Source: Ostrinia nubilalis (taxonomy: Eukaryota > Arthropoda > Insecta > Lepidoptera > Crambidae). Taken from it: a DNA stretch of 64,000 bases. The position numbers and the translations under genes are program-made. The stretch is from the NCBI RefSeq assembly GCF_963855985.1, contig NC_087117.1:5839001-5903000 (forward strand). Direction: 5' to 3'. How positions within the stretch are numbered: the stretch's first letter is position 1; each line of letters begins with the position of its first letter. The notes below the pieces were generated by a model. The model had not been told where the DNA came from and searched no databases. It saw nothing but the letters and a program-made list of their open reading frames with translations. Shown here piece after piece: positions 40,002-58,000 of the stretch.

Positions 40002-43000
40002 CTGTGGACAAACATCAGGTTATTTAGACTCACTGTATAAATTATTACATTATATTTAGTTTTTAGAATAAGAAAAACTTTATTTGACACAAAAGAAAAC
40101 AAAAAAACAGAACTAAGAGACTTAAAACTATACACGCATATTTTGTGCCAAAAAGGCAAATAATAATAAAATCACTAATCTAAATATACAAAAGGAGAAA
40201 CTGACTGACTGACATATCAACGCACAGCCTAAACGGCTAAACGTAGGCACTTGAAATTTGGAAGGGACGTAGCTTAGGTACCGTAGAGGTGCACGAAGAT
40301 AGGAATTCCCGAAATTCCCACGGGAACGGGAATTACCGGGAAAATCTTTTTGTATGAAAAATCTAAACCGCTTAAGTTAGACGCTTGCAATTTGGCATGC
40401 AGGTACCTTAGTAAACTTAAAGCTTAGTTACAACAGGATATTGCAAAATTCCCACGGGAACGGGAGTAAGCGGGAAAAAACATTTGTATGAAAAAATCTA
40501 AGCCGCGTAAGATAGATGAAGGGGGTAAAACGGGATCCACGCGTACGAAGTCGCGGGCGGCCGCTAGTTAACCTCATAAAGGTAGCAGGAAGGCGCTGGA
40601 TGCAACCGGCCTTTATGGAAATCATTGAGGGAGACTTTGTTCAGCAGTGGACGTCCTGTGGCTGAAATGATGATGACAGGATGACCCATTCGTGGGTGAT
40701 CAAACAAAACGGATTGATTCTACATTCTATTTCTACACTACACACGCCTAAAGGTAGAATATTAAACAATAATCACTCAAGCAGAACGATTACTTTAGTC
40801 TCCACTGCAGAAGCACGACCCTCTCTAAGCTCACTGGTCCCAACATAGTACCCTGCAAGACTCCACATCTAATTCAAAGGCCTTACCGTAATCATCATGT
40901 CTTTAGGGACCAGTCGCCTTACCTCAGCCAGAAAGAATAGTAACTTTCCATATTACATAAAGTTAAAGACCCAACATAGTGCCCTGCATGACTCCACACC
41001 TACACACTCAAAGGCCTCACCCTAATCTTCATGTCCTTGGGCGCCAGCCGCCTTATCTCCGCTAGCAGGCGGTCCCCGAACCCTCGGAATAACGTCGAGA
41101 GAGAGAGAGAGAGCTGGCTAGAGAGAGAGAGCTGGCTAGAGAGAGAAAGCTGGCTAGAGAGAGAGTAGCGCGGCAGTATTAACACACAACACTGGTCCCA
41201 ACATAGTGCCCTGCATGACTCCACACCTACACACTCAAAGGCCTCACCCTAATCTTCATGTCCTTGGGCGCCAGCCGCCTTATCTCCGCTAGCAGGCGGT
41301 CCCCGAACCCTCGGAATAACGTCGAGAGAGAGAGAGAGAGCTGGCTAGAGAGAGAGAGCTGGCTAGAGAGAGAAAGCTGGCTAGAGAGAGAGAGCTGGCT
41401 AGAGAGAGAGAGCTGGCTAGAGAGAGAGAGCTGGCTAGAGAGAGAGTAGCGCGGCAGTATTAACACACAACACTGGTCCCAACATAGTGCCCTGCATGAC
41501 TCCACACCTACACACTCAAAGGCCTCACCCTAATCTTCATGTCCTTGGGCGCCAGCCGCCTTATCTCCGCTAGCAGGCGGTCCCCGAACCCTCGGAATAA
41601 CGTCGAGAGAGAGAGAGAGAGCTGGCTAGAGAGAGAGAGAGCTGGCTAGAGAGAGAGAGCTGGCTAGAGAGAGAGAGCTGGCTAGAGAGAGAGTAGCGCG
41701 GCAGTATTAACACACAACACTGGTCCCAACATAGTGCCCTGCATGACTCCACACCTACACACTCAAAGGCCTCACCCTAATCTTCATGTCCTTGGGCGCC
41801 AGCCGCCTTATCTCCGCTAGCAGGCGGTCCCCGAACCCTCGGAATAACGTCGAGAGAGAGAGAGAGAGAGCTGGCTAGAGAGAGAGAGCTGGCTAGAGAG
41901 AGAGTAGCGCGGCAGTATTAACACACAACACTGGTCCCAACATAGTGCCCTGCATGACTCCACACCTACACACTCAAAGGCCTCACCCTAATCTTCATGT
42001 CCTTGGGCGCCAGCCGCCTTATCTCCGCTAGCAGGCGGTCCCCGAACCCTCGGAATAACGTCGAGAGAGAGAGAGAGAGCTGGCTAGAGAGAGAGAGCTG
42101 GCTAGAGAGAGAGAGCTGGCTAGAGAGAGAGAGCTGGCTAGAGAGAGAGAGCTGGCTAGAGAGAGAGAGCTGGCTAGAGAGAGAGAGCTGGCTAGAGAGA
42201 GAGAGCTGGCTAGAGAGAGAGAGAGCTGGCTAGAGAGAGAGAGAGCTGGCTAGAGAGAGAGAGAGCTGGCTAGAGAGAGAGAGCTGGCTAGAGAGAGAGA
42301 GCTGGCTAGAGAGAGAGAGCTGGCTAGAGAGAGAGAGAGCTGGCTAGAGAGAGAGTAGCGCGGCAGTATTAACACACAACACTGGTCCCAACATAGTGCC
42401 CTGCATGACTCCACACCTACACACTCAAAGGCCTCACCCTAATCTTCATGTCCTTGGGCGCCAGCCGCCTTATCTCCGCTAGCAGGCGGTCTCCGAACCC
42501 TCGGAATAACGTCGAGAGAGAGAGAGAGAGCTGGCTAGAGAGAGAGAGCTGGCTAGAGAGAGAGAGCTGGCTAGAGAGAGAGTAGCGCGGCAGTATTAAC
42601 ACACAACACTGGTCCCAACATAGTGCCCTGCATGACTCCACACCTACACACTCAAAGGCCTCACCCTAATCTTCATGTCCTTGGGCGCCAGCCGCCTTAT
42701 CTCCGCTAGCAGGCGGTCCCCGAACCCTCGGAATAACGTCGAGAGAGAGAGAGAGAGCTGGCTAGAGAGAGAGAGCTGGCTAGAGAGAGAGAGCTGGCTA
42801 GAGAGAGAGAGCTGGCTAGAGAGAGAGAGCTGGCTAGAGAGAGAGAGCTGGCTAGAGAGAGAGAGCTGGCTAGAGAGAGAGAGCTGGCTAGAGAGAGAGC
42901 TGGCTAGAGAGAGAGAGCTGGCTAGAGAGAGAGTAGCGCGGCAGTATTAACACACAACACTGGTCCCAACATAGTGCCCTGCATGACTCCACACCTACAC

Positions 43001-55000: not shown

Positions 55001-58000
55001 AGAGCTGGCTAGAGAGAGAGAGCTGGCTAGAGAGAGAGAGCTGGCTAGAGAGAGAGAGCTGGCTAGAGAGAGAGAGAGCTGGCTAGAGAGAGAGAGCTGG
55101 CTAGAGAGAGAGAGCTGGCTAGAGAGAGAGAGCTGGCTAGAGAGAGAGAGCTGGCTAGAGAGAGAGCTGGCTAGAGAGAGAGAGCTGGCTAGAGAGAGAG
55201 CTGGCTAGAGAGAGAGAGCTGGCTAGAGAGAGAGAGCTGGCTAGAGAGAGAGAGCTGGCTAGAGAGAGAGTAGCGCGGCAGTATTAACACACAACACTGG
55301 TCCCAACATAGTGCCCTGCATGACTCCACACCTACACACTCAAAGGCCTCACCCTAATCTTCATGTCCTTGGGCGCCAGCCGCCTTATCTCCGCTAGCAG
55401 GCGGTCCCCGAACCCTCGGAATAACGTCGAGAGAGAGAGAGAGAGCTGGCTAGAGAGAGAGAGAGCTGGCTAGAGAGAGAGCTGGCTAGAGAGAGAGAGC
55501 TGGCTAGAGAGAGAGAGCTGGCTAGAGAGAGAGAGCTGGCTAGAGAGAGAGTAGCGCGGCAGTATTAACACACAACACTGGTCCCAACATAGTGCCCTGC
55601 ATGACTCCACACCTACACACTCAAAGGCCTCACCCTAATCTTCATGTCCTTGGGCGCCAGCCGCCTTATCTCCGCTAGCAGGCGGTCCCCGAACCCTCGG
55701 AATAACGTCGAGAGAGAGAGAGAGAGCTGGCTAGAGAGAGAGAGAGCTGGCTAGAGAGAGAGCTGGCTAGAGAGAGAGAGCTGGCTAGAGAGAGAGAGCT
55801 GGCTAGAGAGAGAGAGCTGGCTAGAGAGAGAGTAGCGCGGCAGTATTAACACACAACACTGGTCCCAACATAGTGCCCTGCATGACTCCACACCTACACA
55901 CTCAAAGGCCTCACCCTAATCTTCATGTCCTTGGGCGCCAGCCGCCTTATCTCCGCTAGCAGGCGGTCCCCGAACCCTCGGAATAACGTCGAGAGAGAGA
56001 GAGAGAGCTGGCTAGAGAGAGAGAGCTGGCTAGAGAGAGAGAGCTGGCTAGAGAGAGCTGGCTAGAGAGAGAGAGCTGGCTAGAGAGAGAGAGAGCTGGC
56101 TAGAGAGAGAGAGAGCTGGCTAGAGAGAGAGAGCTGGCTAGAGAGAGAGAGAGCTGGCTAGAGAGAGAGTAGCGCGGCAGTATTAACACACAACACTGGT
56201 CCCAACATAGTGCCCTGCATGACTCCACACCTACACACTCAAAGGCCTCACCCTAATCTTCATGTCCTTGGGCGCCAGCCGCCTTATCTCCGCTAGCAGG
56301 CGGTCCCCGAACCCTCGGAATAACGTCGAGAGAGAGAGAGAGAGAGCTGGCTAGAGAGAGAGAGCTGGCTAGAGAGAGAGAGCTGGCTAGAGAGAGAGAG
56401 CTGGCTAGAGAGAGAGTAGCGCGGCAGTATTAACACACAACACTGGTCCCAACATAGTGCCCTGCATGACTCCACACCTACACACTCAAAGGCCTCACCC
56501 TAATCTTCATGTCCTTGGGCGCCAGCCGCCTTATCTCCGCTAGCAGGCGGTCCCCGAACCCTCGGAATAACGTCGAGAGAGAGAGAGAGAGAGCTGGCTA
56601 GAGAGAGAGAGCTGGCTAGAGAGAGAGAGCTGGCTAGAGAGAGAGAGCTGGCTAGAGAGAGAGTAGCGCGGCAGTATTAACACACAACACTGGTCCCAAC
56701 ATAGTGCCCTGCATGACTCCACACCTACACACTCAAAGGCCTCACCCTAATCTTCATGTCCTTGGGCGCCAGCCGCCTTATCTCCGCTAGCAGGCGGTCC
56801 CCGAACCCTCGGAATAACGTCGAGAGAGAGAGAGAGAGCTGGCTAGAGAGAGAGAGCTGGCTAGAGAGAGAGAGCTGGCTAGAGAGAGAGAGCTGGCTAG
56901 AGAGAGAGAGCTGGCTAGAGAGAGAGAGAGCTGGCTAGAGAGAGAGTAGCGCGGCAGTATTAACACACAACACTGGTCCCAACATAGTGCCCTGCATGAC
57001 TCCACACCTACACACTCAAAGGCCTCACCCTAATCTTCATGTCCTTGGGCGCCAGCCGCCTTATCTCCGCTAGCAGGCGGTCCCCGAACCCTCGGAATAA
57101 CGTCGAGAGAGAGAGAGAGAGAGCTGGCTAGAGAGAGAGAGCTGGCTAGAGAGAGAGAGCTGGCTAGAGAGAGAGAGCTGGCTAGAGAGAGAGTAGCGCG
57201 GCAGTATTAACACACAACACTGGTCCCAACATAGTGCCCTGCATGACTCCACACCTACACACTCAAAGGCCTCACCCTAATCTTCATGTCCTTGGGCGCC
57301 AGCCGCCTTATCTCCGCTAGCAGGCGGTCCCCGAACCCTCGGAATAACGTCGAGCCGCCGCTCAGCACTATGTTCTGGTACAGAACCTTGCGGAGATCCA
57401 TGTCCGACTTCTGTATGGCGAACATCAGAACTTCGTGGAGGCCTGGAAATAAAATTAAATTGATAAAAAAAACATTACAATAAAGGGACAAAATTAAAAT
57501 ATTTAGCCAAAGAAAAAACAAAAATCTAGACCAGAGGTTCCCAAACTTATTTTGTCTACTGCCCACTTTGAGAATAAATTCTTTTGAGCGCCCCCATAAA
57601 ATTTTCAAGAGTCAAATGCTCAGTCGGTGTCTAAGAGACCTCCTAAGTAGATGAAATTACAAATGGCCTACCAAGACTCTACACAATGCCCCGATTTTTT
57701 TCCGGGGTCTCTTACCGCCCCCCTTTAAGCCTGCAGCGCCCACAAGGGGGCGTTATCGCCCACTTTGGGAAAGACTGATCTAGACTGACATAAAAATAAA
57801 CCGAAAAGATAGAAACAAGACAACTTAGGGTATGCGCACACCGTTGATTTTTCGTCGGTCGATTTAGTCGGGCAGTTGATCAGTATGGGCATGTATGGGA
57901 GTGCGCACACTACGCCGATTCGATTTGGCCGATTCTTCATAAATTTAAAATCGGGCACAACTATCGGCCAACTAAAAATCAACGGTGTGCGTCTACTCTT

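Follow-up and report, generated by a model that had tools for sequence, protein, structure and literature searches.

A new intron in potato was born of a duplication across an intron-exon boundary in the RdRp gene, and two fission-yeast genes cited in the same paper carry serial 24-bp AGGT duplicates (PMC4974935). We describe a duplication across a splice boundary in a 64,000-nt stretch of the genome of the moth Ostrinia nubilalis (NC_087117.1, positions 5,839,001 to 5,903,000; hereafter the window), whose minus strand carries the Arp1 (alpha-centractin) gene. In the intron between Arp1 exons 8 and 9, as assembled, the tail of exon 8 recurs together with its GTGAGG donor and the start of the intron in 37 further copies, all in a single orientation and directly behind the true exon, which is itself the first unit. 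Because the copies adjoin their source in this way, we favor in-place tandem amplification across the exon/intron boundary, and consider it probable, judging from the sequence, that the array arose so and is removed from the transcript as one long intron.

The Arp1 gene and the array behind exon 8

Eight coding exons of Arp1 lie in the window, exons 2 to 8 each preceded by AG and followed by a GT donor, and exon 9 preceded by AG:

63798-63734, minus strand: exon 2
62214-62040, minus strand: exon 3
61453-61302, minus strand: exon 4
59817-59674, minus strand: exon 5 (true)
58777-58612, minus strand: exon 6 (true)
58266-58197, minus strand: exon 7
57442-57276, minus strand: exon 8 (true), the last 78 nt of which (57353-57276) are the source of the array
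40001-39858, minus strand: exon 9, the last coding exon, ending in TAG

Exons 2 to 9 joined give an open product of 360 aa, identical across its 360 aa to the alpha-centractin of O. nubilalis (P0001), and its closest solved structure is Arp1 of dynactin; the identification of the gene made in an earlier note on this DNA is thereby supported. That note had also called the eight true exons intact, which holds for exons 2 to 9 and leaves out the first coding exon, not found within the 64-kb window and presumably lying beyond position 64000. A predicted Arp1-like protein of Rotaria sordida (P0036, 443 aa) contains a 59-residue stretch ending in STLFRG twice, which may be a gene-model artefact. Fold-back (inverted-repeat) sequences seen by eye in Arp1 intron 4, at 59880-60020 and 60650-61000, look like small transposon remnants.

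The intron between exons 8 and 9 measures 17,274 nt, compared with 345-1519 nt for the other Arp1 introns. The distance from the last array donor to exon 9 is 1019 nt, so that the intron without its array would be of a size in the range of the others. The parts of the array are as follows:

57353 to 40970, minus strand: whole array including the true exon 8 end, 16,384 bp
40970..57275, minus strand: part of the array inside the intron, in which the exon 8 end occurs 37 times with donor and intron start, the copies being separated by (CT)nAGCCAG minisatellite
50625..51489, minus strand: region with three copies missing the first 16 exon nt (BLAST starts 51489, 51226 and 50771)
44950..48584, minus strand: nested block duplication, in which units at 48584, 48267 and 47966 recur 2857 bp further on at 45727, 45410 and 45109
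40970..41098, minus strand: last near-identical copy, which ends at TATGTTGGG without a spacer (129 of 163 nt matched)

A BLAST search of the 163-nt unit within the window returned 39 matches, of which one is the true exon, one a diverged copy and the other 37 near-identical copies, and 38 donors of identical sequence were counted, the true one included, spaced at 211-2239 nt (median 297). With so many copies of such identity, chance need not be considered as an explanation. Each unit runs through 78 nt of exon, GTGAGG and intron for 82 nt, and the minisatellite, after which the exon part begins again; 33 intronic copies (34 units with the true exon) have the full 160 nt. Among these 34, 27 carry no substitution and seven carry one each, the only two kinds being G24A (6 copies) and A71C (1 copy), so the array is either recent or homogenised.

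The GA-rich blocks between the copies consist of an 18-nt unit that reads mostly (CT)6AGCCAG on the transcribed strand, with 542 such junctions counted, and no match to the 18-mer with at most one mismatch occurs outside the array in this window. In 35 of the 37 spacers, the inner tracts hold six CT in 340 of 498 cases, seven in 102, five in 46 and another number in 10. The earlier note had proposed 37 recent, near-identical copies amplified in place, all starting at the same exon base (TCGACG) and adjoining the same GA tract. Number, place and near-identity were borne out; recency stands only beside homogenisation, the last copy lacks its spacer, and the common starting base fails for the 3 of 37 copies without the first 16 exon nt, in each of which 62 exon nt are left.

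Growth of the array and older copies at exons 5, 6 and 8

Spacers between neighbouring full units vary from 51 to 2079 nt, setting aside a 3376-nt stretch that contains the three short copies. In the nested block duplication not only the three units but also their spacing and variants recur, and the stretches from 48584 and from 45727 are identical for 824 nt. Nested blocks and variable spacers, with exact repeats of up to 1688 nt, are the pattern of repeated local duplication. The exon-side junction and the CT tract have the trinucleotide CTC in common, a feature compatible with joining by microhomology.

BLAST of every exon with 80 nt of flank (threshold E 0.01) revealed older copies of the same kind, each lying downstream of its source in the same intron:

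40931-40832, minus strand: one old copy, diverged to 82.5%, of the exon 8 tail with its donor (here GTAAGG) and the intron start
59621-59536, 59294-59169 and 59194-59137, minus strand: three copies of the exon 5 tail with donor and intron start, diverged to 79-87%
58524-58412 and 58390-58317, minus strand: two copies of the exon 6 tail with donor and intron start, diverged to 80-83%

The copies at exons 5 and 6 comprise about 50 nt of the exon's own 3' end with the donor and intron start, and a weak fragment near 58300 is a possible third exon 6 copy; the tandem copies of the two exons span 59134-59725 and 58290-58660. At the same threshold, no copies of their own ends were found for exons 2, 3, 4, 7 and 9, whose flank matches are dispersed repeats, and no copies of an exon head with its acceptor were seen. 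One intron had been thought to be affected, which holds for the array itself, whereas older events of this kind follow exons 5 and 6 as well. As these two exons have older copies, such duplications appear to be recurrent in Arp1. Because the window has frequent local tandem repeats in other places as well, the plain view is one of frequent local duplication, surviving where the upstream donor keeps working.

Two further ideas on the old copies found no support in the window. GT is kept in 7 of 7 by eye, counting the weak exon 6 fragment, and at about 83% identity a kept GT is too common for a conclusion on donor conservation. To the eye, introns 5 and 6 begin alike, as introners would, and their alignment score was reached by 706 of 2000 dinucleotide shuffles.

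Splicing of the array and alternative readings

Under the account we favor, a segment made of the Arp1 exon 8 end, the donor and the first ~82 nt of the intron would have been joined to a CU-rich minisatellite, the founding join probably using the CTC common to exon and (CT)n tract. Rounds of local tandem duplication, some of them of blocks of ~2.85 kb, would then have added 37 copies in place. Splicing would still join the true exon 8 donor to exon 9 and discard the whole 17-kb stretch, and the older duplications at exons 5 and 6 would have been tolerated while the upstream true donor was used. PTB-type proteins coat CU repeats. Decoy donors and acceptors would be silenced, perhaps by such proteins or by the crowding of AGs.

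The unit had been described as an exon end plus donor; both are present, and it also carries signals resembling a branch point, a polypyrimidine tract and an AG acceptor. Read in the sense of transcription, the spacer is TTAATACTGCCGCGCTA(CT)5AGCCAG, and the first such arrangement lies directly behind the true exon:

57182..57275, minus strand: intron start, in which the true GTGAGG donor and the first acceptor-like TAG span 94 nt and TTAAT stands 25 nt ahead of the AG

The same 94-nt arrangement of a branch-point-like TTAAT, a CU tract and TAG/CCAG follows 37 of the 38 donors, the true one included, so that every module resembles an intron with a cryptic exon. The CAG four nt past the TAG has an AG 2 nt upstream. 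We compared the 3' sites by simple features and general consensus motifs: the array site has 12 of 14 pyrimidines versus 9 of 14 at exon 9 (12 of 14 also at exons 5 and 6), the branch-like motif stands 25 nt from the AG versus 13 or 36 nt at exon 9, and the AG-free stretch is 36 nt versus 25 nt.

Several of these observations weigh against the favored account. Judged by simple features, the 3' sites of the array appear to equal or surpass the exon 9 site, and an intron of 94 nt can function, so that simple rules do not predict silence. The exact repeats of 1688 and 1209 nt, the longest in the array, are places prone to assembler error, and the account does not explain why the flank changes at the last near-identical copy or where the spacer with TTAAT came from. 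Finally, when two arrays of the observed lengths were placed at random in the 6.5-kb exon 2-8 region, both spanned an exon tail in 0.6% of trials, and each alone did so in 7-9% (13-15% excluding arrays that touch other exon parts), but this test of placement at exons 5 and 6 was devised after the fact and is small.

The alternative that survives best, although we regard it as unlikely, is that the modules are used. Exon 8 would be spliced to nearby array acceptors, giving either in-frame inserts of 31 or 33 aa or, mostly, early-stop messages that are degraded, so that the length of the array would tune Arp1 output as a serial poison-exon device. The regular 94-nt units, with TTAAT 25 nt ahead of the AG, and the stronger pyrimidine content and longer AG-free stretch relative to exon 9 speak for such use, as do the reading frames: from the last CAG, 29 of the 37 cryptic exons are in frame and open, and 5 others are so from the last TAG. 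These frames are common by descent, however, so the 29 are not independent, and only 1 of 37 is in frame and open from the first TAG and 10 of 37 from the first CAG; splicing into the array would thus in many cases disrupt the message of an essential gene. Furthermore, a search with a hypothetical isoform carrying one 31-aa module (7996 candidates scored, 67 matches judged by a table of lengths and three sequences) yielded no insert-bearing Lepidoptera Arp1 among the 67 matches listed, the longest Lepidoptera entry among them being an ordinary one of 376 aa. This absence is weak evidence, as transcripts of the species itself may be outside the entries and degraded messages would escape. A stronger form of the idea, in which the array is a serial, copy-number-tunable splicing device within a constitutive cytoskeletal gene and each added 94-nt intron/cryptic-exon module traps the spliceosome and lowers or alters Arp1 output, seems to us slightly less likely still.

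RNA structure that would hide the splice sites was considered and is unsupported, a single module of 257 nt folding less stably than 200 of 200 shuffles. No known RNA family reached its gathering threshold in the window.

It is rather improbable that faulty assembly produced all or part of the array, giving a wrong copy number in the repeat, as near-identical units and the two long exact repeats could suggest. A simple assembly loop would not be expected to give spacers of such different length, G24A in 6 copies at several places and differing CT numbers. Least probable is an origin elsewhere, for example from a mobile or circular (rolling-circle) copy reinserted in the intron, since, for all that the flank changes at the last copy and that the units' common spacer and minisatellite occur nowhere else in the window, the true exon is the first unit, in register and orientation, and no element ends were recognised.

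Outside Arp1, local tandem repeats were observed at 34733-35768 (~94%, 413-nt step, in a stretch with strong GC skew) and at 15260-15473 (99%, 106-nt step). Reading frames at 1076-2700 on the minus strand match DUF7041 and, below threshold, a gag aspartyl protease, and probably belong to a retroelement. At 7055-8845 on the plus strand, a lysine-rich open frame of 597 aa is 90% identical over 97% of its length to an uncharacterised Ostrinia furnacalis protein; its other 25 matches reach at most 51% in the best Loxostege stretches, with some short stretches of 60-73% in other moths, making it a fast-evolving gene beside a nearly invariant one.

Significance and comparison with described systems

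If the gene works, the spliceosome picks one donor of 38 identical ones and bypasses dozens of good-looking acceptors, and nature would here be testing donor competition and the silencing of pseudo-exons with an unusual number of copies. Were the modules used, the locus would show a mass creation of introns and exons caught shortly after the event, and, should the splicing-device reading be true, a boundary-born way of building many introns at once. Judging from the older copies behind exons 5 and 6, introns may commonly grow by duplication across donors, and such cases can be counted in any moth genome.

Among the papers listed by a literature search of incomplete coverage, none concerns an intron made up of copies of the end and donor of the exon before it. 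The available parts of PMC9311317 and PMC8042265 contain nothing on such an array, and in the latter the word "intron" is absent from the main text. The claim that no case of this form had been described is thus not contradicted, although related mechanisms are in print (PMC4974935).

With the duplication of tandem or mutually exclusive exons (e.g. PMC9013439) the array shares exon sequence in tandem copies within one gene. It differs in that only the 3' part of the exon is copied, not diverged into alternatives and lacking the parental upstream splice site: 78 of 167 exon nt recur (62 in three copies), and the parental acceptor does not. With intronic minisatellites or variable-number tandem repeats that affect splicing (e.g. 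ABCA7, PMC5954066) it shares a tandem repeat of variable unit number in an intron, whereas the Arp1 unit contains coding sequence and the gene's own donor. Its 18-nt and 160-nt units, filling 16,384 bp within the intron, place it among intronic minisatellites.

To our knowledge, the satellites of the gigantic Drosophila introns are not made from an exon of the host gene. Those introns, too, are enlarged by tandem repeats within a needed gene, but are megabase-sized (PMC6508621).

The class of mechanism, tandem duplication across a splice boundary and intronic minisatellite, is already known. As in intron gain by tandem duplication (potato RdRp, ATP2A1 and fission-yeast AGGT; PMC4974935), duplication of a boundary copies ready-made splice signals, and the Arp1 array is a tandem duplicate with an identifiable source across such a boundary, the exon 8 end and its donor. 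In contrast to those cases, the Arp1 array, whose modules are candidate introns, copies the donor side, within an existing intron, 37 times.

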